Positions 8,647 to 58,262 of a DNA stretch of 64,000 nt are shown here, piece by piece; the first letter of the stretch is position 1; each line of letters begins with the position of its first letter. A program made the translations under genes and the position numbers. The notes below the pieces were generated by a model. That model saw nothing but the letters and a program-made list of their open reading frames with translations, did no database searches and had not been told where the DNA came from. This DNA is from Patagioenas fasciata (lineage: Eukaryota > Chordata > Aves > Columbiformes > Columbidae): positions 117,028,501-117,092,500 of the forward strand of contig NC_092520.1 of assembly GCF_037038585.1 (NCBI RefSeq), written 5' to 3'.

Positions 8647-11378
8647 ACAGCTTATATCTTTTATGCAGCAGATTGGATAATAGCAAAGACTTTGCCCAGC
8701 TTTAGCATTCAATGTTATGTTTGTCTTCCAGACTAAATTCCACAGCTGTCAAGTAAATACTGTGCATTCAGCAAAGATCTGACTTCTAGAGGTAATGGAT
8801 CCAGCAAGACACAAAATCCAGGTCCACGCAGCACCTCACAGTACTGGTTATGCATTTCAGCCTAGCTGAACTCTCATTCCAAGTCACATCCATCAAAAGT
8901 CATTGTATTGGGAACATGCCTGACTAAACACACATTTTTTGTCATTTGAGGCCATTGAGTCCCACATGCTGAATGTGAGAACTGATCTGTTTCCTCCCAC
9001 CCCAAATCCTTGCCCCAGTGTCCATATCTCCCCATTTTTGGTGCAGTGCCTTCACCTCTATGCCCTTCCTCATGATCTTCTCGTCTGCCGGTCAAAACCC
9101 ACTGTGGTCATTGCCACAGCAGCCCACACACTCAGGGGCTGTGCCCCTGTGTATTTGGCACAATTCCCAAAATATTTGTCTCATGGGTTAGCATTGAAGT
9201 GGCTTAAGATGTCCGCAGTTTCTTGGTGTGTGAGCAAAACTGAATGTCTTCAGAGTTTAAAGTGACATTAGGCCTGCAGTAAGCTGCTCTTCTAATGACT
9301 GTACTGCTACTTCTATGAAGATCAGAATATATGTTGTTCAGCTTAATTATAAATATTAGTGCTTGTTACAGGGAATAGAAACACTAAAATTCTGCTGTGT
9401 TTTTAACTAATCTTTTGTCTGTCTGCAATGCTGTGGGTGATGGATAATCATAGCACACCAATGGCACCGTAACAATGTCCTCTGCAGCAGCAGGCTTCTG
9501 CATGACAACCTCATGTGAAAACAGTGATATTTTGCATCCAAAACTTTATCTGAAAAGCAAAAAACTGCTGTGTAGATCTAACTTACAAGTTAAGAAACTT
9601 ACTGTTTTCCTAACTTGGTTCCTAGTCTTAAGAAATATTCTTTGAAAAAAGGACATAAATAGCAAGAGATAAATTATGTGCAAGATTCCATAAAATAATT
9701 CAATGTTAACATAACATCAGCATCTGAACAGAGGAATACAACAGAAAGTGTGAGACCTATCTAATGAAAATGTAGGCCCAATTCAAAATCCATGTCTTTA
9801 AATATATATAGGCTGAAATTTCACTGCTTTTACAGAGAAATTGACGTGGTCACCCTCCCCCCCCCAAAAAAAAAAGACTCATGATTAAGAAATGAGAGGA
9901 ACTGAGAGGGAGTTGAACAGCCATAATAGAAAAAAAAAAAAAAAAGCAACTGTGAGGGTTGGAGAAGGTGAATTAAAAGAAACTAAAAACAACCTCTGTG
10001 TAAAGAGCACAATGCAATGGCTGCTGAAATCTGCAGACCAAACAAATAATTATTTACTTGTACTACACATCACTCATTTTAATAAATGAGAAAAAATACA
10101 AACTATTGAAATTATCAATAAAAAAGGATACATAACAAACCACATAGAAAATGTAAAAGTGCACAGAGGAAAATACTTAGCCTTAACATTACTGCCCTGT
10201 TGATCTAACCATTAAATAAATAAATATCCATGAGCAGCGTGCATTTACAAAGAAGAAATACCTGAAGATATATCAGCAAAATGGCACAAAAAGGAAAATC
10301 TCCACAAGTTATGAGAACAAGGTAATTCTGGGAACACAAAAAGGCATGACAGTGAATAATTCCACAAAGTTAAAGGAAAATGGAAAAAAAAGTTATCTCC
10401 AGCCTGGATGAGCAACTGAGTGTGATTTTAAAAAGTATAATCTTGGGCCTAAATATCTGAGATCTACATAAGGATTTGCATCTTTCATTGGATGAGGCTA
10501 TTTCACTCAGCCCACAATAGCTGCCAGAAGTCTTTGTATATGATATGTTTTGCCTGTTTTTTTTTTTGTTTTCCTTTACAGATTTATAGGTGTTTATTAT
10601 AATTTCCTCCTGTGACTCCAGTCTGCTGTGCTGATACACCAGTGATGAGTGAACTCAAAACAGTAGGGTGTTTTACTAAATTGCATAAATCAAATATGTT
10701 GTACATAATGAGCTCTTTTTATAACACAAGCTATTGCACCACCTGTGTGTATGTTCTTAGTTGTAAATTGGTTTACAGCACGTATAGCACATTGCAGAGT
10801 GCAAGTGCTTTTTCAGAGGCATCCAGAAACTCTGAGCCTTCACTGACTCCGTGAAGGTTCCAGGCCGTGAAATCCATTAGGAAGTGCCCAAATAGAGTAT
10901 GTTCTGTTTGACCTACCTCAAAGGGACAGGGGACATCAGGAATGTGTCTGCATTCCACAGTGTGGATCCCAGGGGCTTACTTGATGGATAAGATACAAAC
11001 AGATATGTAATGACCCTCCAGTAGTCCCTTACTTGAGTCCCAGCTCCCTTGCAGAAGTGGTTTCCCCAGCCAGGGCTGGAAGCCACAGCTGAGATAATGC
11101 ACAAGCTTCCATCTCTTTTCCTTTTTGGATGCTTGCTAATGACTTCATCTAACTGGATGACTGATAGTGACTTTCTTAAGAATATGTTTTAATGAGAAGT
11201 CAGGTCAGATTTGAGAGTGCATGGAAATACTCATATCAAACAAATTGTTAAATGGACCATGCTAACAGCTCTCTTGTTCCCTCTCCTGAGTACTCACCAT
11301 AGCCTGATCTCTTGTAAGGTACTGGTGCTCCCTGCACCTCCTGGGAAATGAGTGAGAAGCTACAAGGGCTGATATGTA
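8647..11378. other. Unassigned non-coding DNA with homopolymer runs
   Basis: No gene recognised. The stretch has a C9 run followed directly by an A10 run (9857-9875), an A16 run (9930-9945) and a T run near 10557-10567. Frames here, including a 108-codon plus-strand frame at 8939-9265, show no domain. Part of 10840-11110 is less AT-rich than its surroundings but was not identified. Confidence 0.55.
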
Positions 11379-12398
11379 TAGAATCATAGAATCATTCTGG
11401 TTGGAAAAGACCTTTAAGATCATCAAGTCCAACCATTAATCAAAGAGTACTAAGTCCACCACTAAACCATGTCATTAAGCACCACATCTACACAGCTTTT
11501 AAATACCTCCAGGGGTCGTGACTCCATCACTGTCCTGAGCAGTCAGTTCCAACACCTGACAACCTTTTCTGTGAAGAATTTTTTCCTAATATCCAATCTA
11601 AATTTCCACTGGTGCAACTTGAGGTTGTTTCCTCTTGTCAATCACTTGTTACATGGGAGAAAAGATCAACACCCTCCATGCTACAACCTCATTTCAAGTA
11701 GTTGCAGAGAGCAAGAAGGTCTCCCCTCATGCTTGTTTCTCCAGGCAAAACAACCCCAGTTCCCTCAACCACTCCTTGTAGGACTCGTTCTCTGGACCCT
11801 TCAGCAGCTTCATTGTTCTTCTTTGGAAATGCTCAAGCATCTCAATGTCTTTCTTGTAGTGAGGGGTTCAAAATTGAACACAGGATTTGAGGTGGACCCC
11901 CATCAGTGCCAAGTATGGGGGTATGATAATTTCCCTAGTCCTGCTGGACACACTATTCCTGATACAAGCCAGGATGCTGTTGACCTTCTTGGCCACCTGG
12001 GCACATTGCTGGTTCATGTTCAGCCAGCTGTGGACCATCACTCCCAGGTCCTTTTCCTCAGGCAGCTTTCAGGCCACTCTTTCCCAAGCCTGTATCGTTG
12101 CATGGGGGTTATTGTGACACAAGGGCAGGAACCAGCACTTGGACTTGTTGAACCTCATACAATTGGCCTCAGCCCCTAGATCCAGCCAGTCCAGATCTCT
12201 CTGTATGGCCTTCCTACTCTCCAGAAGATCAACAATCCCACTCAATTTGGTGTCATCTGTAGACTTACTGAGGGTGCACTTAATCCCCTCATCCTGATGT
12301 CCTGATCATTGATAAAGATATGAAACAGAACCAGCTCCAATACTGAGCCCTGGGGAACACCACTTGTGACCAGCCACCAGCTGGTTTTCAATCCATTC
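11379..12398 (-). mobile_element. CR1 LINE copy A, 3' part (oldest layer of nested cluster)
   Basis: Read on the minus strand this is the C-terminal RT region and 3' UTR of a 5'-truncated CR1. The 3' tail lies at 11379-11395 (TAGAATCATAGAATCATT on the plus strand), followed by the usual CR1 3'-terminal block. Further along, the minus strand gives degenerate versions of SGVPQGSVL and the RT C-terminal region, with frameshifts and stops. It ends abruptly at 12398, where the 3' tail of another CR1 begins. The missing 5' continuation lies about 2.65 kb away at 15047-15150. The sense codons rejoin without a gap (VVVN then G-L-K-S/T-SWW), so one copy was split by a later insertion. A 236-codon plus-strand frame here is antisense to the RT and is not a gene. 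Confidence 0.9.
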
Positions 12399-12721
12399 AT
12401 AGAATCACAGAGTCACAGAATGTTAGGGATTGGAAGGAACCTCAAAAGATCAACTAGTCCAATCCCCCTGCCAGAGCAGGAACACCTAGATGAGGTTACA
12501 CAGGAAGGCTTCCAGCTGGGTTTTGAATGTCTCCAGAGAATGAGACTCCACAACCCCACTGGGCAGCCTGTTCCAGTGTACTGTTACCCTCACTGTGAAG
12601 ACATTTCTTCTCAAATTTAAGTGGAACCTCTTGTGTTCCAGTTTGAACCCATCGCCCCTTGTCCTACCACTGGTTGTCACTGAGAAGAGCCTGGCTCCAT
12701 CCTCGTGACACTCACCCTTTA
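12399..12721 (-). mobile_element. CR1 LINE copy B, 3' half (middle layer of nest)
   Basis: This is the 3' end of a second CR1 subfamily, with tail AGAATCACAGAGTCACAGAA at its plus-strand left edge followed by the 3' UTR block. Upstream in sense, the minus strand encodes the ORF2 C-terminus ([14 protein letters not shown] through HWNRLP to FLCNLI). The homology stops at 12721 inside the codons for Y-K-Y-I-K-G. The matching 5' half, which ends at DLISVY, starts again at about 14305. The two halves are therefore one insertion later split by copy E. Confidence 0.9.
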
Positions 12722-14304
12722 TCACAGTATCACAGTATCACAGTATGTTTGGGATTGGAAGGGACCTCAAAAGATCATCTAGTCCAATCCCCCTGCTGGA
12801 GCAGGAACGCCTAGGTGAGGTCGCACAGGAATGTGTCCAGGCGGGCTTTGAATGTCTCCAGGGAAGGAGACTCCACAACCTCCCTGGGTAGCCTGTTCCA
12901 GTGCTCTGTTACCCTCACTGAGAAGAAGTTCTTTCTCAAATTTAAGTGGAACCTCTTGTGTTCCAGCTTGATCCCATTGCCCCTTGTCCTATCATTGTTT
13001 GCCACTGAGAAGAGCCTGACTCCATCCTCATGGCACTCACCCTTTATATATTTATAAACATTAATAAGGTCACCCCTCAGTCTCCTCTTCTCCAAACTAA
13101 AGAGCCCCAGCTCCCTCAGCCTTTCTTCATAAGGGAGATGCTCCACTCCCTTAATCATCTTTGTTGCCCTACGCTGGACCCTCTCCAGCAGTTCCCTGTC
13201 CTTCTTGAACTGAGGGGCCCAGAACTGAACACAATATTCTAGATGGGGTCTCACCAGGGCGGAGTAGAGGGGAAGGAGGACCTCTCTCGATCTACTGACC
13301 ACCCCCCTTGTAATACACCCAAGGATGCCATTAGCCTTCCTGGCCACAAGGGCACAGTGCTGGCTCATGATCATCCTGTTGTCCACCAGGATCCCCAGGT
13401 CCCTTTCCCCTACACTGCTCTCTAATAGGTCATGCCCCAACCTATACTGGAACTTGGGATTGTTCCTGCCCAGATGCAGGACTCTACACTTTCCCTTGTT
13501 AAATTCCATCAGATTATCCCCCGCCCAACTCTCCAGCCTGTCCAGGTCCCGCTGGATGGCGGCACAGCCTTCTGGCGTGTCAGCCACTCCTCCCAGCTTA
13601 GTGTCATCAGCAAACTTGCTGATAGTACACTCAATTCCCTCGTCTAAATCATTAATGAATATATTGAATAATATTGGCCCCAGTACTGACCCCTGAGGCA
13701 CTCCACTAGATACTGGCCTCCAACTGGACTCCGCACCATTGACCACCACTCTCTGGCTTCTCTCTTTAAGCCAGTTTGCAACCCACCTCACTACTCTATT
13801 GTCGAGACCACACCTCCTCAATTTAGCTGTGAGGATGCTGTGAGGGACTGTGTCAAAGGCTTTACTGAAGTCAAGGTAGACCACATCCACCGCTCTGCCA
13901 TCATCCATCCACCTTGTTACATTCTCATAAAAGGCTATGAGGTTGGTCAAGCATGACTTACCCTTGGTAAAGCCATGCTGACTGCCCCTAATGACCCTCT
14001 TATCCCTGATGTGCCTTGAGATGGCACCAAGGATAAGCTGTTCCATTACTTTCCCAGGGACAGAGGTGAGGCTGACCGGTCTATAATTACCCGGGTCCTC
14101 CTTCTTGCCCTTTTTAAAGACTGGAGTGACATTTGCTTTCCTCCAATCCTCGGGCACCTCTCCCGTTTCCCAAGACTTGGCAAAAATGATGGATAGCGGT
14201 CTAGCAATGACTTCAGCCAGCTCCCTCAGCACCCGCGGATGCATCCCATCTGGACCCATGGATTTATGGACGTCCAGACTACTTAATTGTTCCCTAACCC
14301 AGTC
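12722..14304 (-). mobile_element. CR1 LINE copy E (youngest layer of nest), 5'-truncated
   Basis: This minus-strand CR1 lies between the two halves of copy B. Its 3' tail is three ATACTGTG-type octamers (12722-12748 on the plus strand), followed by the standard 3' block, the whole ORF2 C-terminus and the RT. The 5' end is truncated in ORF2 near the D-W-V-R-E-Q-L segment just before the RT, so the endonuclease and ORF1 are absent. With copy F as a guide to the uninterrupted target, about 4-6 bases of the target were lost and there is no clear target-site duplication. It is the least decayed member of the cluster, in line with being the last to insert. Confidence 0.92.
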
Positions 14305-14325
14305 TGTAAACACTAATAAGGTCAC
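12811..14325 (-). pseudogene. 5'-truncated CR1 ORF2 (reverse transcriptase) with a long open frame
   Basis: There are 504 sense codons without a stop. The frame opens at a GTG, and its first five or six codons belong to the surrounding copy B/D. From TDWVREQL on it is CR1 ORF2. Visible RT features are [40 protein letters not shown], the catalytic YLDFSKAFD block, [11 protein letters not shown] and the FADD box with its aspartate pair. The conserved C-terminal region ([30 protein letters not shown]) follows. An intact CR1 ORF2 is about 950 codons, so the N-terminal half with the endonuclease is missing. The fragment cannot retrotranspose by itself and has no native start codon. Its openness reflects youth rather than host gene function. 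Confidence 0.85.
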
Positions 14326-15046
14326 CCCTCAGTCTCCTCTTCTCCAAACTAAAGAGACCCAGCTCCATCAGCCTTTCCTCATAAGGGAGATGCTCCACTC
14401 CCTTAATCATCTTTGTGGCTCTGTGCTGGACTCTCTCCAGCAGTTCACTGTCCTTCTTGAACTGAGGGGCCCAGAACTGGGCACAATATTCCAGATGTGG
14501 TCTCACCAGGGCAGAGTAGAGGGGAAGGAGAACCTCTCTCGACCTACTAACCAACCCCCTTCTAATACACTCCAGGATGCCATTGGCCTTCTTGGCCACA
14601 AGGGCACAGTGCAGGCTCATGGTCATCCTGCTGTCCACCAGGACCCCCAGGTCCCTTTCGTCTCCGCTGCTCTCTAACAGGTCATTCCCCAACTTATACT
14701 GGAACCTGGAGTTGTTCCTACCCAGATGCAAGACTCTGCACTTTCCCTTGTTATATTTCATTAATTTTTCCCTGCCCAACTCTGCAACCTGTCCAGGTCT
14801 CACTGAATGGCAGCACAACCTTGTCGCGTGTCAGCCACTCCTCCCAGCCCGGTGTCATCAGCAAACTTGCTGATAGTACACTCTATTCCCTCATCCAAAT
14901 CATTGATGAATATATTGAGTAACACCGGCCCCAGTAACGACCCTTGAGGCACTCCACTAGATATAGGTCTCCAACTAGACTCTGCCCCATTGACCACAAC
15001 TCTCTGGCTTCCTTCCTTCAACCAGGTCGCAGTCCAACTCACTACC
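14305..15046 (-). mobile_element. CR1 LINE copy B/D, 5' half (middle layer of nest)
   Basis: This is the 5' part of the same insertion as 12399-12721. In sense it starts near [16 protein letters not shown], so it is 5'-truncated in the RT thumb-side region. It continues through [11 protein letters not shown] and FADDTGLGG, then a frame change near 14800, and the connection region to L-I-S-V-Y at about 14305, where copy E interrupts it. The FADD box is kept, but the frameshift makes it non-functional. At its 5' end (15046) copy A resumes at once. Confidence 0.88.
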
Positions 15047-15150
15047 CACCACAACTCTTTGAGCCTGACCATTCAGCCAGTTTTCTACCCAGCAAAGTGT
15101 ATATTCATCCAAGCCATGGGCAAGCAATTTCTCTAGGAGAATGCTGTGCA
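15047..15150 (-). mobile_element. CR1 LINE copy A, 5' part
   Basis: The minus strand reads HSILLEKLLAHGLDEYTLCW then a [14 protein letters not shown] segment, the CR1 RT region directly upstream of SGVPQGS. It ends exactly where the 3' part at 12398 would continue. Beyond about 15150 homology stops, marking the 5' truncation of the original insertion. The remaining length shows that about 2.65 kb was later inserted. Confidence 0.87.
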
Positions 15151-30841: not shown

Positions 30842-32525
30842 TTCACAGAATCACAGAGTCACAGAATGTTAGGGATTGGAAGGGACCTCAAAAGATCATC
30901 TAGTCCAATTCCCCTGCCGGAGCAGGAACATCTAGATGAGGTTACACAGGAAGGCATCCAGGCAGGTCTTGAATGTCTCCAGAGTAGGAGACTCCACAAC
31001 CTCCCTGGGCAGCCTGTTCCAGTGTACTATTACCCTCACTGTGAAGACATTTCTTCTCAAATTTAAGTGGAACCTTTTGTGTTCCAGTTTGTACCCATTA
31101 CCCCTTGTCCTATCATTGGTTGTCACCAAGAGGAGCCTGGCTCCATCCTCATGACACTCACCCTTTAAATATCTGTAAACATTAATGAGGTCACCCCTCA
31201 GTCTCCTCCAAACTAAAGAGACCCAGCTCCCTCAGCCTTTCCTTATAAGGGAGATGCTCCACTCTCTTAATCATCTTCGTTGCCCTGCGTTGGACTCTCT
31301 CCAGAAGTTCCCTGTCCTTCTTGAACTGAGGGGCCCAGGACTGGACACAATATTCCAGATGTGGTCTCACCAGGGCAGAGTAGAGGGGAAGGAGAACCTC
31401 TCTCGACCTACTAACCAACCCCCTTCTAATACACTCCAGGATGCCATTGGCCTTCTTGGTCACAAGGGCACAGTGCTGGCTCATGGTCATCCTGCTGTCC
31501 ACCAGGACCCTCAGGTCCCTTTCCCCTACACTGCTCTCTAACAGGTCATTCCCCAACTTATACTGGAACCTGGAGTTGTTCCTACCCAGATGCAAGACTC
31601 TACACTTTCCCTTGTTATATTTCATTAATTTTTTCCCTGCCCAACTCTCCACCTGTCCAGGTCTCACTGGATGGTGGCACAGCCTTCTGGCGTGTCAGCC
31701 ACTCCTCCCAGCTTGGTGACATCAGCAAACTTGCTGATAGTACACTCTATTCCCTCATCCAAATCATTGATGAATATATTTAATAATATAGGCCCCAGTA
31801 CTGACCCTTGAGGCACTCCACTAGATACAGGCCTCCAACTAGATTCCACCCCATTGACCACGACTCTCTGGCTTCTTCCCTTCAGCCAGTTCACAGTCCA
31901 CCTCACTACCCGATCATCCAGACCGCACTCCCTCAATTTAGCTGTGAGGATGCTGTGGGAGACTGTGTCAAATGCCTTACTCAGTCAAGGTAGACCGTGT
32001 CCACCACTCTGCCATCATCCATCCATCTTGTTATGTCCTCATAAAAGTCAGTGAGGTTGGTCAAGTACAACTTCCCTTTGGTGAAACCATGTTGACTGCC
32101 CCTAATGACCCTCTTATCCCTGATATGCCTTGAGATGGCACCAAGGATAAGTCGTTCCGTCGGTTTCCCAGGGATGGAGGTGAGGCTGACCGGTCTATAG
32201 TTACACAGGTCCTCCTTCTTGCCCTTTTTGAAGACTGGAGTAACATTTGCTTCCCTTCAGTCCTCAGGCACCTCTCCCATTTCCCAAGACTTGGCAAAGA
32301 TGATGGAGAGTGGTCCAGCAATGACCTCAGCCAGCTCCCTCAGCACCCGCAGGTGCACCCCATCCAGACCCATGGATTTATGGATGTCCAGATTGCCTAA
32401 CTGCTCCCTAACCCAGTCCTCATCAACTGAGGCAAACACTTCCATTGTCCTGCCTTCCTCTGGGGCCTGCATCATGGACAGTTCAGGTACTAGCAAAGTG
32501 GATACCGTACTCTCTTTATATGCTT
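30842..32525 (-). mobile_element. CR1 LINE copy F, 5'-truncated and degenerate
   Basis: This is a minus-strand CR1 of the same subfamily as copies B and E. The 3' tail (CACAGAATCACAGAGTCACA) is at the plus-strand left edge, followed by the 3' block and then the ORF2 C-terminus and RT in several broken frames. The minus strand shows [43 protein letters not shown] and HKSMGLDGVHLRVL. The 5' end stops near 32525, upstream of the RT, so the endonuclease and ORF1 are missing. A small deletion in the [10 protein letters not shown] segment, a one-base loss near 31984 and other indels break the frame. The RT box reads F-A-D-V instead of F-A-D-D, which removes a catalytic aspartate. It is a dead copy. 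Confidence 0.92.
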
Positions 32526-33920
32526 CCAAAACTTTTAGCCTGCCATTGCTAATTCATAATCTTCTAGTAAGAACTTTTTAGCAGTTTGTCTGATCTGGGT
32601 AACTTTAAATTGAGAGTGAACTTGCAGAATAGTACTCAATTGGAACGTGTATGTGTGCATGTCATTACCTAGCATGCCCTTTCTGCTCATGCCTATAACC
32701 ATTTTCCAGTAATGCTCATGTTGTCAGAGAAAGCTGAAAACCATACTTGTAAAAATATGTGGGAAAAAAAAAAAAAAAAGATGAAGTCTAAGAGGGCCAG
32801 CTAATTCAAACTTTAAAAAATATGTTTCATTACGCTGATACATAGAGCTACTTCCAAAAATAACACTTCATGTGACAGATAGACATGCAGGATAGAAAAC
32901 TGGGCAAGAGGAGCTGAGCCTAAATGCTTAATGCATCCCAGTTTGGCAGTTAGCACGTCAGTTGTACAGGCTGTGCAGAGTCTCTTGTCTTGTGCTTGAG
33001 ATGCATTTCCTCACATTCCTCTTTTTATGGACAAAATGACCTTGTCCTACTTTCAGTCTTTTTCACTGCCATAAGTAGACATTCATATACTTCACTTTTC
33101 CATTCCATTTCAACAACACGCAGGTGAGATCTTTCTGGCCATTGGAATGGGATATATTAACAACAACAAAATACTAGTTTAGTCTGGTTCTCTCCTGCAG
33201 CGCTTTTATGTAATATTCAGAGCTGAGTGATTTTTATGGACAGAATATCTGTCATAGTTATGGGTATTCCACTGCTGACATGACAACTGCGATTGTTTTC
33301 CCATAAAAATTATGATAGCCATCTGGAATAACAAGGAAATGAACAGAAAGCACTTCAGATCGAATGAATACATTTTTTTATTTACAGTTTTACATCCAAA
33401 AACATGATGGGGAAGAGGAATTCATAGTTTTTTCTGATAAAAAGGTAGCAATGGGAAGGTTTTTCAAACTATTTCATTCCTCAAACAGCTTTAACTAGCA
33501 ATGTAATTCTAGAAAGATTTCAAGTCTGTAACATTTACTCCCAATGATCTGCTTAAAATATGTTTATTTCATTTTTAAAAGGTTACTAAAGATTGCCCTC
33601 ATAGAAAAAAAAAATAAAATCAAATACTAGCTCTCTAATTTACATTATAAAGTAGGCTATTGATTTATTACAACAAAATAGTAAAAATTGTTGCATGCAT
33701 TGTACAGTTTTTCAAATTCCGCAGTGATCATGACACAAATTGGCAAACATATGAAGAAATAACTTCAGTCATCAATAAAGAATATCTTATTACTAGCTGT
33801 ATAATTTCCAATTTTATTTGAGCAAATCATACTGAATTATCTGAGGTGTCTGAATTTTTTTGGTTAATACTGTTTTTTGCCCAAGTATTTGCTAGCATTT
33901 TGATTACTGTGCTAAATGAT
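32526..33920. other. Unassigned AT-rich non-coding DNA
   Basis: No gene seen. It contains an A16 run at 32764-32779 and several A/T-rich stretches. It separates a minus-strand and a plus-strand CR1 copy of different subfamilies. Confidence 0.6.
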
Positions 33921-35038
33921 GTGCTTCCATTTTCCTTGGAAAAATATGCATTGGACAGGTGTACTCTTTGCTGGGTAAAGAACTGGTTGGATGGCCAGGC
34001 CCTAAGTGTTGTGGTGAACGGAGCCAAATCCAGTTGGTGGCCAGTCATGAGTGGTGTTCCCCACGGCTCAGTATTGGGGACAGTTCTGTTTAATATTATT
34101 AACAATGATCTGAATGAGGGGATCGAGTGCATGCTCAGTAAGCTTGCAGATGACACCAAATTGGGTGGGACTGTTTATCTGCTGGAAGGTAGGAAGGCCA
34201 TACAGGAGGATCTGGACCAGCTGGATTGTTGGGCTATATCCAATCGTATGAGGTTTAACAAGGTCAAGTGCCAGGTCCTGCACTTCTGTCACATCAACCC
34301 CAGGCAGCGCTACAGGCTCAGAGAAGAGTGACTTGAAAGCTGCCTGACAGAAAAGGACCTGGGGGTTTTGATTGACAGCTGGCTTAACATGAGTCAACTG
34401 TGTGCTCAGGTGCCCAAAAACGTCAACAGCATACTGGCTTATATCAGGAATAGTGTGGTGAGCCGGACTAGGGAAGTGATTGTTCCCCTATACTTGGTGC
34501 TAGTGAGGTCCCACCTTGAATCCTGTGTTAAGTTTTGGGACACTCACTACAAGAAAGATGTGAAGGCACTGGAGAGAGTTCAGAGAAGGGCAATGAAGCT
34601 GGTGAGGGGTCTGGAGCACGAGTCTTATGAGGAGCAGCTGAGGGAACTGGGGCTGTTCAGCCTGGAGAAAAGAAGGCTGAGGGGAGACCTTATTGCTGTT
34701 TATAACTACCTGAAAAGAGGTTGTAGCATGGAGGGACTTGGTCTCTTCTCCCAAGTTGCAAGTGACAGGACAACAGGACACAGCCTTCAAGTTGCATCAG
34801 TGGAGGTTTAGATTGGATATTAGGAAAAATTTCATGGAAAGGGTTGTCAGGCATTGGAACAGGCTGCCCCAGGAAGTGATGGAGTCACCATCCCTGGAAG
34901 TATTTAAAAGACACTTAGATGTGATGCTTAGGGACAAAATTTTTTTATACGTGGACTTGGCAGTTTTAGGTTAATGGTTGGACTCACTGATCTTAAAGGT
35001 ATTTTCCAGCCTAAATCATTCTACGATTCTATTCTATG
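33921..35038 (+). mobile_element. CR1 LINE copy G, old 5'-truncated copy
   Basis: Plus-strand CR1 starting inside the RT. The first homologous codons correspond to L-E-K then [13 protein letters not shown], with about three codons missing compared with sister copies. It continues with [40 protein letters not shown] and the C-terminal [15 protein letters not shown] region, and ends with the 3' block and tail ATTCTACGATTCTATTCTATG (about 35017-35037). Stops and indels near 34331, 34810 and the end break ORF2 into three frames. The RT box reads L-A-D-D. The subfamily resembles copies A and K more than copies B, E and F. Confidence 0.92.
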
Positions 35039-41429: not shown

Positions 41430-41479
41430 TGCTGTCATAGGCACATGCAGACCCCACACACACTCTGTTTTGGGGAGAT

Positions 41480-42418
41480 ATGGACCTCTCAGCAGCTGGC
41501 ACCAGGCACATGGGCTGTGACTTCAGCCCAACCCCAGCAATGGTGGAGAGACTAAGGAGCATTAGGGAAAGTGAAGTGGAAATTGACTGGTGGAGTCAAA
41601 CCCTCTTGGCTCCTAAGGGTGTGCAACCAGAGATGGTGAAGCCCCATCCTTCCTGCCATAAGGCGGATGGAGCAGAACTAGCTGATGAGGGGGAATGGAA
41701 ACGGGTCCCTGATCGGAGAGGCAAAAGAGCACTCTCTCGAACACCATCACCACCCTTGGTGCCCTTAACAAATAGATACGAGGCCCTGGACCCAGAAAGT
41801 CCATCAGAGAACAGCCAAGAAGATCTGCCTGGAGAGCCTCCTAGACAGACCTCATTTACAAAAAGAATTACAACCGCAACTATAAGGAAAAAACAAAGAA
41901 GGGTGGTTGTAGTCGGCGACTCCCTTCTGAGGGGAACAGAGGGCCCTATATGTCGCCCAGACCCATCCCACAGGGAGGTCTGCTGCCTTCCTGGGGCCAG
42001 GGTGAGGGATATCAATAGAAGACTGCCGGAGCTAATTCAGCCCACAGATTATTATCCCCTGTTAGTAGTCCAAGCTGGCAGTGAGGACATTAACAGAAGA
42101 AGTATCAGGGCAATTAAAAAAGACTTTAAAGCACTGGGTCAGTCAGTTCATGGGACAGGAGCACAGGTGATATTTGCCTCAGTTCCTGTGCTATCCGGAA
42201 TGGATGAGGAGGCAAATAAAGAGAGAAACAGAAAAGCCCATCTCATTAACAGATGGCTAAAGGATTGGTGCCACCATAAAAATTTTGGTTTTTTTGACCA
42301 TGGGGCAAACTCCATGGTACCTAGTCTCATGAAATCAGATGGGCTTCATCCCTCTGGGAAGAGCAAGAGGACTATAGCCCATAAGTTGGCAGCACTGATC
42401 AAGAGGGCTTTAAACTAG
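41480..42418 (+). CDS. CR1 ORF1 protein with SGNH/GDSL esterase-like domain
   Basis: This 312-codon ORF has an ATG start; an in-frame stop at 41438-41440 limits further extension. Residues 22-39 ([18 protein letters not shown]) and 73-102 ([11 protein letters not shown] to TNRYEAL) match segments typical of CR1 ORF1. Residues 140-312 form an SGNH-hydrolase-like domain. Block I is VVVGDSLLR with candidate nucleophile Ser148, block II is PGARV around Gly172, and block V is DGLHPSG with Asp287 and His290. Block III reads GSED (200-203), whereas the family usually has an Asn in a GxND motif. In CR1-type elements ORF1 is thought to bind RNA or chaperone nucleic acid, and an esterase domain is known in the family; its substrate is unknown. 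The N-terminal 20 residues lack the coiled coil or zinc finger often seen upstream, so the N-terminus may be truncated. The stop TAG overlaps the ORF2 frame, which opens at 42385. Confidence 0.9.
42409..42415 (+). promoter_or_regulatory. Candidate -1 ribosomal frameshift heptamer T_TTA_AAC
   Basis: The final ORF1 codons read GCT TTA AAC TAG. This puts the slippery heptamer T_TTA_AAC in the ORF1 zero frame directly before the stop at 42416-42418. After a one-base backward slip, reading continues TTT AAA CTA GGT TTG into the open ORF2 frame with no stop. ORF2 has no ATG until codon 33 of its open region. The same heptamer class works in coronaviruses and some other -1 frameshift systems. A downstream stimulator is uncertain: GGTTT (42418-42422) can pair with AAACT (42440-42444), and the G5 in its loop could pair with TCTCC (42449-42453) as a weak pseudoknot, with only a short spacer. 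Function is inferred. Confidence 0.55.
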
Positions 42419-42420
42419 GT

Positions 42421-45276
42421 TTGAAGGGGGAAGGGATTGAAACTGGGCTCTCCAAAGATCAGCCTAAGGACAAAAAGCCTGAATTAAGAGTGAAATCAGC
42501 AGCCCACTTGAAGTGCATGTACACTAATGCACGCAGTATGGGCAACAAACAAGAGGAGCTGGAAGCCATCGTGCAGCAGGAAAGCTATGACATAGTTGCC
42601 ATCACAGAAACGTGGTGGGATGACTCGTATGACTGGAGTGCTGCTATGGGTGGCTACAGGCTCTTCAGAAAAGACAGGCAGGGCAGGAGAGGTGGAGGGG
42701 TGGCTTTATATGTTAGAGAGTCTCTTGACTCTGTTAAACTTGAGGTCAGTAGTGACAAGGTTGAGTGCCTGTGGACCAGAATCAGGGGCAAGTCCGACAA
42801 GGCTGATGTCCTTGTGGGTGTCTGTTATAGACCACCCGACCAGGATGATGAAGGAGATGAATTATTCTACAAGCAGCTGGCAGATGTCTCAAAATCGACA
42901 GCCCTTGTTCTTGTGGGGGACTTTAACCTGCCAGATATCTGCTGGGAGCTCAATACTGCACAGAAGAGGCAGTCTAGGAATTTCCTAGAGTGTATAGAGG
43001 ACAATTTCCTTCATCAGCTGGTAAATGAGCCTACCCGGGGTAAGGCCTTGCTAGACCTACTGTTTACAAACAAAGAAGGGCTGGTGGGAGATGTAGTGGT
43101 TGGCGACCGCCTGGGGCATAGCGACCACGAAATAATAGAATTTTCAATAGTTAGAGATGCAAGGAGAGCCACCAATAAAACCTCTACACTGGACTTCCGG
43201 AGGGCAGATTTTTGCCTATTCAGAAGTCTAGTTCAGAGCATACCCTGGGAAACAATGCTTAAAAACAAGGGGGCCCAGGAGGGTTGGACATACTTCAAGC
43301 GGGAGGTTTTGAGGGCACAGGATCAGGCTATACCAGTGCGCCGAAAGGCTAGCCGACAGGGAAGACAACCGGCTTGGCTAAACAGGGAGATTTTGAAGGA
43401 AATCAGAAATAAAAAGAGAGTTTACAGACTGTGGAAAAAAGGGCTGGCTACCTATGAAGAATTTAGGAAAATAGCTAGATCGTGCAGGAAAAAAATCAGG
43501 GAAACAAAAGTGCAGTTTGAAGTTAATTTGGCCAATTCTGTTAGGGATAATAAAAAGTCCTTCTTTAAATATGTTAATAACAAAAGGAGGGGCAAGGAAA
43601 ACCTCCATTCTCTACTGGACTTTGAGGGAAATATAGTTAACAAAGATGAGGAGAAAGCTGAGGTACTTAATACCTACTTTGCCTCAATATTTACCAGTCA
43701 AACAGATGGCCCTCAGGATAACTGGCCTCTGGAGATGGTTGACAGGAATAGGAAGCCAAATAGTCCCCTTGTATTCCAAGAGGAAATAGTTGGTGGCTTA
43801 CTGAGCCATCTGGATCCTCATAAGTCTATGGGACCAGACGGGATCCATCCTAGGGTGATGAGGGAGCTAGCAGAAGAGCTCGCCAAGCCGCTCTCCATCA
43901 TCTTCCAACAGTCTTGGCTCACTGGGGAGGTCCCAAATGATTGGAAACTGGCAAATGTTACCCCAATCCACAAAAAGGGCTGCAAAGCTGACCCTGGCAA
44001 CTACAGGCCTGTCAGCCTGACCTCGGTGCCTGGCAGGGTGATGGAGCAGATCATCCTGAATGCAATCACACAGCACCTCCAGGATGGACCAGGGATCAGA
44101 CCCAGCCAGCATGGGTTTAGGAGGGGCAGGTCCTGTCTGACCAACCTGATTTCCTTTTATGATCAGGTGACCCACCTAGTGGATGAGGGGAAAGCTGTAG
44201 ATGTGATCTATCTAGACTTCAGCAAAGCCTTTGACACTGTCTCCCATAATATACTCCTTCAAAAGCTGATAGCCCATGGCTTGGACAAGTGCACTCTCTG
44301 CTGGGTTAAGAACTGGCTGGAGGGCCGGGCCCAGAGAGTGCTGGTAAATGGGGCTGCATCTAGCTGGCGGCCAGTCACTAGTGGTGTCCCCCAGGGGTCA
44401 GTGTTGGGTCCAGTCCTGTTTAACATCTTTATTGATGATTTAGATGAGGGGATTGAGACCACCATCAGCAAATTTGCTGATGACACCAAGTTGGGGGGCA
44501 GTGTTGACCTGCTGGAAGGCAGGAGGGCTCTGCAAAGAGATCTGGATAGACTGGAAAAATGGGCTGATTCCAATGGGATGAAGTTCAACAAGGCCAAGTG
44601 CCGGGTCCTGCACTTTGGCCACAACAACCCCCTTCAGCGCTACAGGCTGGGCACAGAGTGGCTGGAGAGCAGCCAGACAGAAAGGGACCTGGGGGTACTG
44701 ATTGACAGCAAGCTCAACATGAGCCAACAGTGTGCCCAGGTGGCCAAGAAGGCCAATGGTATCCTGGCCTGTATCAAAAATAGTGTGGTCAGCAGGACAA
44801 GGGAAGTGATCCTTCCCCTGTACTCTGCATTGGTGAGGCCACACCTGGAGTATTGTGTTCAGTTCTGGGCCCCTCAGTTCAGGAAAGATATTGAGGTGCT
44901 GGAGCGGGTCCAGAGAAGAGCAACAAGACTGGTGAAGGGACTTGAGCACATGACCTATGGTGAGAGGCTGAGGGAGCTGGGGTTGTTCAGCCTGGAGAAG
45001 AGGAGGCTTAGAGGTGACCTCATTGCTCTCTATAACTACCTGAAGGGAAGTTATAGTCAGGTGGGAACTGGTCTCTTCTCCCAGGCAGTCAGCAATAGGA
45101 CAAGGGGACATGGGCTTAAACTCTGCCAGGGGAAGTTTAGGCTGGATATTAGGAAGAAGTTCTTTACGGAAAGAGTGATCAGGCATTGGAATGGCCTGCC
45201 TAGGGAGGTGGTGGACTCACCGTCCCTGGAGGTTTTTAAACTGAGATTGGACATGGCTCTTAGTGCCATGATCTAG
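42421..45276 (+). CDS. CR1 ORF2: endonuclease-reverse transcriptase polyprotein, intact
   Basis: 951 codons counted from a TTG at 42421; the frame is open from 42385, overlapping the end of ORF1. No ATG lies near the start. The first is codon 33, inside the first endonuclease strand, so translation probably depends on frameshift or reinitiation from ORF1. Residues 30-245 form an apurinic-type endonuclease: TNARS (Asn36), TETWW (Glu63), CYRPP, GDFN (Asp167, Asn169), LDLLFTN and GHSDH (Asp235, His236). Residues 455-800 form the [47 protein letters not shown] (Asp599), [11 protein letters not shown], and FADD (Asp687, Asp688). The C-terminal region ([30 protein letters not shown]) is complete and ends S-A-M-I. 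The enzyme would nick genomic DNA and prime reverse transcription of CR1 RNA from its 3' end. No inactivating change is visible. A 248-codon antisense frame (44440-45186) is a shadow of this gene. Confidence 0.93.
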
Positions 45277-45342
45277 TAAATGGGCTGAAGTTGGACCAAG
45301 GGTTGGACTTGATGATCTCTGAGGTCTTTTCCAACCTAGCCA

Positions 45343-45366
45343 ATTCTGTGATTCTGTGATTCTGTA
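45343..45366 (+). repeat. CR1 3'-terminal octamers (ATTCTGTG, ATTCTGTG, ATTCTGTA)
   Basis: Three direct octamers end the element, the last with one change. CR1 ends in short octamer repeats rather than poly-A. They are thought to mark the site where reverse transcription starts. Confidence 0.93.
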
Positions 45367-57065: not shown

Positions 57066-58262
57066 GGGGAAACCTGATCTCCTTCTATGACACGGTGACC
57101 CACCTGGTAGATGAAGGAAAGGCTGTGGATATTGAGTACTTCGACTTCAATAAGGCTTTTGACACCATATACCACAGCATTCTCCTGGAGAAGCTGGCAG
57201 CTCATGGCCTGGATGGGTGTACTCTGCGATGGATAAAAAACTGGCTGGAGGGCTGAGCCCAAAGTGTTGTGGTGAACAGAGCCAAATTCAGTTGGCAGCC
57301 GGTCGTGAGTGGTGTTCCCCAGGGCTCAGTATTGGGGACAGTTCTGTTTCATCTCTTTATCAATGATCTGAATGAGGGGATTGAGTGGACCCTTAGTAAG
57401 TTTGCAGATGACACCAAATTGGGTAGGACTGTTTATCTGCTGGAGGGTAGGAAGGCCATACAGAAGGATCTGGACCAGCTGGATCGTTGGGCTGTATCCA
57501 ATGGCATGAGGTTTAACAAGGCCAAGTGCCAGGTCCTGCACTTGTGAGCAGCACTACAGGCTTGGGAAAGAGGGGATGGAAAGGTGCCTGACAGAAAAGG
57601 ATCTGGGGCTGTTGATTGACAGCCAGCTGAATATGAGCCAGAAGTGTGCCCAGGTGGCTAAAACGTCAACAGCATTCTGGCTTGCATCAGGAATAGTGTT
57701 TCCAGCAGGACTAAGAAAGCGATTGTCCCCTGTACTCAGGGGTGAGGCCCCACCTCACATACTGTGTTCAGTTTTGGGACCCTCACTACAAGAAAGATAT
57801 TAAGATTTTGGAGGGAGTTCAGGGAAGGGCAATGAGGCTGGTAATGGGTCTGGAGCACAAGTCTGATGAGGAGCAGCTGAGGGAACTGGGGTTGTTTAGC
57901 CTGGAGAAAAGGAGGTTGAGGGGAGACCTTATCGCTGTCTACAACTACCTGAAAGGAGGTTGTAGCATGGAGGGTGTTGGTCTCTTCTCTCAAGTAGTAA
58001 GTGATAGGACAAGAGGAAACAGCCTCAAATTGCACCAGGGAAGGTTTTGATTGCACACTAGGAAAAAATTCTTCATGGAAAGGGTTGTCAGGCATTGGAA
58101 CAGGCGGCCCAGGGAAATGGTTGTGTCACCATCCCTGGAAGCATTTAAAAGGCATTTAGATGAGGTTCTTAGGGACATGGTTTAGTGCTAGAGTTAGGTT
58201 AGGTTATGGCTGGACTTGATGATCCTGATGGTCACTTCCAACTGAAATTATTGTAAGTCTTC
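57066..58262 (+). mobile_element. CR1 LINE copy K, old 5'-truncated copy
   Basis: Plus-strand CR1 that begins in the RT at N-L-I-S-F-Y-D and continues with GKAVDIEYFDFNKAFDTIYH, a stop after N-W-L-E-G (57254), [14 protein letters not shown] and [21 protein letters not shown] stop and a short deletion follow near 57546, then a frameshifted connection region, [15 protein letters not shown], and the 3' UTR block ending about 58262. The catalytic block reads YFDFNKAFD. The 3' octamers are worn (AAATTATTGTAAG). The frame is broken into at least four pieces, so the copy is dead. It is closely related to copies A and G. Confidence 0.92.

Follow-up and report, generated by a model that had tools for sequence, protein, structure and literature searches.

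CR1 is a major long interspersed element (LINE) of birds and reptiles, and how LINEs synthesize the protein of their second open reading frame (ORF2p) is an old question, for which reinitiation and internal entry are the familiar examples. We analyzed a 64,000-nucleotide stretch of the Patagioenas fasciata genome (assembly GCF_037038585.1, contig NC_092520.1, positions 117,028,501 to 117,092,500; hereafter the window) that carries a CR1 copy with overlapping ORF1 and ORF2. Judging from sequence comparisons, the young avian CR1 family represented by this copy very probably makes an ORF1-ORF2 fusion by −1 programmed ribosomal frameshifting on the slippery heptamer U_UUA_AAC. The junction has the required anatomy, the heptamer, its phase and the adjoining stop codon are conserved across the host genome, and two CR1 families (A and B) have no usable AUG for ORF2. 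In the proposed mechanism, some of the ribosomes reading ORF1 would slip back by one base just before UAG, re-pairing from UUA-AAC to UUU-AAA, and would read on through ORF2 to yield an esterase-endonuclease-reverse transcriptase fusion, while the remaining ribosomes would terminate at UAG and release the ORF1 protein (ORF1p). ORF2p would therefore arise, as Pol does in Gag-Pol, as a minority product attached to ORF1p. We infer the slippage, its rate and any later cleavage of the fusion, and favor this route because ORF2 itself lacks a usable start codon.

In the window copy, ORF1 ends with GCT TTA AAC TAG at 42407-42418, where TTA occupies 42410-42412, AAC 42413-42415 and TAG 42416-42418, so that T_TTA_AAC lies at 42409-42415 in the phase of ORF1 and directly adjoins the stop. 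ORF2 is in the −1 frame relative to ORF1 and is open over 963 amino acids (aa; 42385-45276). Both features had been read in the same way by the first-pass annotation, which was made from the letters of the stretch and proposed the frameshift; its remark that ORF2 lacks an early ATG also held, the first in-frame ATG (42517-42519) being residue 45 of the frame, or codon 33 when counted from the stop. Regardless of position, the word TTTAAAC is not rare in the window (18 found versus 17.7 expected), and we rejected rarity of the word as an argument. When the codons of ORF1 itself were drawn at random, the probability of a canonical heptamer immediately before the stop was 0.0023, that of any canonical heptamer in phase within the overlap was 0.022, and that of one of the four shiftiest heptamers in the overlap was 0.0038. 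Taken alone, the window copy is suggestive only, and the real evidence is the conservation of the heptamer.

We searched the host genome (1.45 Gb in 359 contigs) and found at least 40 places, including the window, that were identical over 301 bp spanning the junction, a lower bound because 40 of the 1039 candidates were scored. Two copies matched the window without any difference over at least 41851-44100, and this family, family A, is young. In the four full-length copies examined, ORF1 spans 368 aa counted from the ATG, and ORF2 has 963 open codons, the first Met being residue 45; family A is therefore a recently active family without an ORF2 AUG before the first endonuclease strand. For the junction itself, we compiled 97 distinct places from several families, 20 of which were picked for divergence; nine of the 106 loci were dropped as repeats of places already included, and the ORF1 ends of L094, L099 and L111, whose matches ended one residue early, were shifted by one codon by hand. 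TTTAAAC was exact at 93 of the 97 places and was followed by TAG at 91, and the four heptamer exceptions (L094, L099, L102 and L111) all belonged to the 20-copy divergent set. Amongst 40 distinct 80-nt junctions the heptamer was kept in 36, which ranked it first of 74 seven-base segments (median segment, 0.325) in a tie with two overlapping segments that start one and two bases earlier. Between the CR1 subfamilies of this genome the heptamer thus does not vary freely while the surrounding synonymous sites do, and its conservation, measured in one genome, exceeds that of neighboring synonymous sites. Many old CR1 copies with ORF1 ends were also seen on contig C47 of G000, which may be a sex chromosome, although this is a guess.

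We next compared families A and B, whose ORF2 sequences are 60% identical. In the last 73 aligned ORF1 codons the two families have the same residue at 29, and 16 of the 25 degenerate same-residue codons differ when the last two codons are excluded, yet GCT TTA AAC is unchanged. The Leu-Asn end could have been kept for the function of ORF1p alone, with the heptamer as a by-product of codon choice; TTA is not rare among the Leu codons of ORF1 (7 of 30), the Arg-Ala-Leu ahead of the end is well kept, and in the predicted ORF1 model the terminal helix of the esterase reaches the last Leu (predicted local distance difference test score of 79 in the last block). That TTA, AAC and the preceding T stayed the same amid so many changed codons makes this explanation very improbable, and two further results speak against it, namely the residues found ahead of Leu-Asn and the end of a distant element (L001, described below), which has a different top heptamer and different residues at the same place.

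The first of these comes from ORF1 homologues of other tetrapods. The best 120 of 260 and the best 120 of 367 matches gave 168 proteins, 31 of which were excluded as not reaching the C-terminus by the criterion used, including P0263, which extends beyond Leu-Asn. Among the matches listed, 130 of the 137 homologues that reach the end terminate in Leu-Asn (exceptions: P0033, P0042, P0065, P0084, P0095, P0108 and P0114); they come from sources including many bird orders, ostrich, turtles, lizards, a snake and frogs, and the comparison for turtles, lizards and frogs is one of proteins only, not DNA. The residue before Leu-Asn is always one with an NNT codon (A in 119, S in 6, C in 2 and V, D and T in 1 each). 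The −1 frame itself was visible as FKL(D/G/E)-KGEG-like peptides in 28 of 120 ORF2 records, from wood stork, ibis, godwit and flycatcher. The only sequences that can encode both Leu-Asn-stop and, in the alternative frame, Phe-Lys-Leu are TTTAAAC and TTTAAAT followed by T(A/G); as the two peptides were taken from different records, the deduction concerns subfamilies and not single copies. Some of the records appear to be misfiled or misnamed: P0067, a CR1 ORF1 esterase on a 2932-bp contig filed as Klebsiella pneumoniae, is most likely animal contamination, and the CR1 ORF2 proteins P0211, P0236, P0205 and P0231 bear host gene names in bird annotations, such as 'mitochondrial enolase superfamily member 1', 'egg-white cystatin' and 'adaptin ear-binding coat-associated protein 1'.

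The start codons of ORF2 bear on another explanation, that ORF2 is translated by termination-reinitiation or after internal entry, starting from an AUG or near-cognate codon of the leader, as described for SART1 and proposed for LINE-1. This has precedents in non-LTR (long terminal repeat) elements in the available text of PMC5972666, near-cognate codons are present in the leaders, and the first AUG after the stop in family A is in the ORF2 frame. The position of that AUG is not kept, however: of 87 annotated ORF2 records, 70 have Leu and 12 have Ile in place of the window Met, and we rejected window Met45 as the ORF2 start given these replacements and the absence of a Met there in family B junctions. 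Across the host-genome junctions and the 87 annotated records, no ORF2 AUG was kept across families, nor did one occupy the constant position close to the ORF1 stop that is expected of reinitiation-type LINEs such as SART1 and LINE-1. In all 22 family B junctions (median pairwise identity, 98%; 3 of the 22 interrupted by a stop in the part read), three or more out-of-frame ATGs precede the first in-frame ATG, which itself lies past the Asn that we take to be the catalytic residue of the endonuclease; the three B copies read to the end all have 966 open codons from the heptamer, with the first Met at residue 54, after this Asn. For these reasons AUG reinitiation in family B would not easily yield an active endonuclease. 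Reinitiation and internal entry would also leave the conservation of an in-phase heptamer unexplained, and we regard them as improbable. The proposal that ORF2 is translated as an ORF1-ORF2 fusion, by contrast, gains support from the kept heptamer, phase and stop together with the lack of a usable AUG in two families.

Several results weigh against frameshifting. The 97 places came mostly from searches with proteins that end in Leu-Asn, in which the best matches were taken first, and the conservation of Leu-Asn may be partly structural because the terminal Leu sits in the predicted helix. In a cruder control of 279 stop-to-stop frames of at least 60 codons in the window, a canonical heptamer directly adjoined the stop in 5, the CR1 ORF1 included, and lay within 10 codons of it in 23. 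A leader ATG in frame within 36 codons of the heptamer was present at 11 of the 97 places, some of them older copies of families C and D and one a B′ copy, and in 81 of the 87 annotated ORF2 records a Met lies 3-27 residues ahead of the first endonuclease strand, a count to be read in light of the tendency of annotated proteins to start with Met; both would suit initiation in the leader. No clear protein-level constraint was seen on the −1 leader in five pairs (ratios resembling those of nonsynonymous to synonymous change, about 0.3 to 2.7), and an unconstrained leader peptide fits a linker and adds no support. Nor was a downstream stem or pseudoknot at 5-9 nt supported in the window, in 15 copies or in L001. 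The 80 nt after the window heptamer fold worse than 200 of 200 shuffles (z = +2.34), no stem was common to the folds of the 15 copies at 60 and 100 nt, where single B, B′ and D copies reached z of about −1.3 to −2.5, and an H-type pseudoknot of L001 was equalled by 83 of 200 shuffles. The weak pseudoknot that the first-pass annotation had drawn at 42418-42453 can indeed be drawn, but 108 of 200 shuffles equalled it and the other-family junctions inspected do not form its first stem; we discarded it. Downstream structure is not present at every known −1 frameshift site. The next separate conservation peak after the heptamer is instead a purine tract: segments in AAGGGGGA, the core of GAAGGGGGAAGGG, were kept in 0.70 of the 40 distinct junctions, and AAGGGGGA was present at 85 of the 97 CR1 junctions.

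We also scanned other sequence collections. In bacterial genome contigs we detected five loci, of which L001 and L002 alone contain a two-ORF junction; both are evidently eukaryotic contaminants, each in a single copy. L001, in a Flavobacteriales metagenome-assembled genome (MAG), is 34% identical, and its ORF1 matches PHD weakly, with a score under the cut-off. This ORF1 ends with TCG GGA AAC TTC TAA, in which G_GGA_AAC (junction region 1601-1628) stands in phase one codon before the stop, within a 9-codon overlap, as the only canonical in-phase heptamer of the 445-codon ORF1 frame; ORF2 is in the −1 frame with its first Met at residue 79. The chance product for the window and L001 was 1.7e-5 under the codon-draw model. 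L002, in a Poribacteria MAG, is 32% identical, with a PHD match just below the cut-off. At its positions 1520-1531, ORF1, UGA CUA and ORF2 share one frame; the endonuclease starts immediately after UGA CUA and the first ORF2 Met is residue 67. A candidate pseudoknot in L002 was equalled by 3 of 200 shuffles, while its plain fold was weaker than most shuffles (z = +1.46). The remaining three loci were of other kinds: L003 (600-4478), on a contig binned with a tubeworm endosymbiont, has one long LINE ORF that is R2-like by our reading, L004 resembles a group II intron reverse transcriptase by our reading, and L005 is a partial match. Scans of viral contigs revealed no LINE, and two viral contigs that matched a degenerate reverse transcriptase pattern were set aside as phage-like by our reading. 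Amongst the best 20 of 1043 matching plasmid records, none covered 80% of the query, and the named ones were bacterial reverse transcriptases or polymerases.

L001 also bears on the manner of slippage. Slippage could occur at termination, while UAG occupies the A site and tRNA-Asn the P site, and not as tandem slippage of both tRNAs. In that case only the P-site codon must re-pair, yet all seven bases are kept, and the stop of L001 lies one codon further downstream; we consider this variant extremely improbable. As to LINEs of the CR1/L2 type in general, we lean, by a small degree, towards the view that they make a Gag-Pol-like fusion by recoding at the ORF1-ORF2 boundary, which would involve U_UUA_AAC in tetrapod esterase-type CR1 since before the bird/turtle/lizard/frog split, G_GGA_AAC in one distant element of the PHD type and readthrough of UGA CUA in a second element, the signals being replaced and the outcome kept.

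The window element is a CR1 LINE of the esterase type, with an APE endonuclease and reverse transcriptase, an SGNH esterase ORF1 and a 3′ octamer tail; such octamer repeats at the 3′ end are typical of CR1. The copy is 5′-truncated, its homology to the ORF1 relative P0001 beginning at 41543, which corresponds to residue 73 of P0001. The PF13472 match in ORF1 is slightly below the curated cut-off (31.5 versus 32.9 bits), and several ORF1 homologues are named SGNH hydrolase-type esterase. ORF2 matches PF03372, PF14529 and PF00078, which identify an APE-type endonuclease and a reverse transcriptase. Several older 5′-truncated CR1 copies lie at 11368-15142, 30845-34908 and 57071-58242 (67-76% identical to the present copy over long matches). 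No other CR1 copy in the 64-kb window reaches the junction, all being 5′-truncated.

Features of the CR1 element, in window coordinates
Feature	Position	Strand	Basis or remark
5′-truncated CR1 LINE copy, family A	41543..45364	+	ORF1 homology start and 3′ octamers; exact right edge is an estimate
ORF1 frame (esterase-type ORF1p, C-terminal part)	41441..42418	+	325 open codons and TAG; the element itself starts at ~41543
SGNH/GDSL-type esterase region of ORF1	41984..42361	+	Pfam PF13472, E=3e-07
ORF2, −1 frame	42385..45276	+	963 codons and stop; 34-nt overlap with ORF1
Slippery heptamer T_TTA_AAC, ORF1 phase	42409..42415	+	Read directly; exact at 93/97 places
ORF1 stop TAG, immediately 3′ of heptamer	42416..42418	+	Read directly; TAG at 91/97 places
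Purine tract GAAGGGGGAAGGG, 7 nt 3′ of heptamer	42423..42435	+	May act as a stimulator or spacer
First in-frame ATG of ORF2, within first endonuclease strand	42517..42519	+	Not conserved; mostly Leu/Ile in relatives
APE-type endonuclease domain (Pfam range)	42532..43128	+	Pfam PF03372, E=6.9e-18
Reverse transcriptase domain	43966..44628	+	Pfam PF00078, E=6.7e-39
Two ATTCTGTG octamers, 3′ end	45343..45358	+	At 45343 and 45351

If frameshifting operates as proposed, a seven-base signal sets the ratio of ORF1p to ORF2p, ORF2p would bring an ORF1p module into the particle, and copies truncated within ORF1 could not make ORF2p in the normal way; the genome would also hold conserved −1 sites of chromosomal origin that are directly testable. 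In the open-licence literature, as far as its text was available, we found no earlier report of frameshifting or readthrough at CR1 or other non-LTR ORF1-ORF2 junctions, and a prior remark in subscription-journal CR1 papers is possible. In its available text, PMC5009743 covers TART, LINE-1 and HeT-A, whose gag expression requires a frameshift, with no mention of CR1, and that of PMC1925062, on butterfly CR1 elements, mentions frameshifts only as mutations. The mechanism class is known, and its use in a LINE would be new as far as the literature searched shows.

Among described elements, CR1 subgroup 7 of PMC4120745 shares with the window element an esterase ORF1 and an ORF2 with APE endonuclease and reverse transcriptase, and on the strength of the esterase we tentatively place the window element in that subgroup; the available passages of that paper do not discuss ORF2 translation, and the word 'frameshift' is absent from its main text. 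SART1, LINE-1 and CR1 are all non-LTR RNAs with ORF2 3′ of ORF1. According to the part of PMC5972666 available, SART1 uses termination-reinitiation and LINE-1 an unconventional variant close to the AUG of ORF2, whereas CR1 families A and B have no suitable AUG. L002 resembles the UGA-CUA readthrough of Sindbis virus and OPRL1, a recoding type and an element different from those of the window CR1; UGA-CUA alone is given as supporting 1.5% readthrough in the accessible part of PMC4132726.

The closest likeness is with retroviral gag-pol and coronavirus ORF1a/1b, which have in common with CR1 an in-phase X_XXY_YYZ at the end of the upstream frame and a −1 frame that encodes the polymerase. A minority fusion product, a feature of both viral systems, is what we propose for CR1 from its sequence. 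Unlike those sites, the CR1 site is carried by a non-LTR LINE, and no downstream stem or pseudoknot was found there, only the purine tract. In Rous sarcoma virus the stop directly follows the heptamer, as in CR1, and the heptamer differs from that of CR1. In this virus, which like CR1 has an avian host, 5% of ribosomes shift by −1 close to the end of gag, and a stimulatory pseudoknot is described for its site, unlike the CR1 junction (PMC5009743, in the part available). The same text names U_UUA_AAC and G_GGA_AAC among the most shifty heptamers on mammalian ribosomes and gives U_UUA_AAC as the heptamer of infectious bronchitis virus (IBV).

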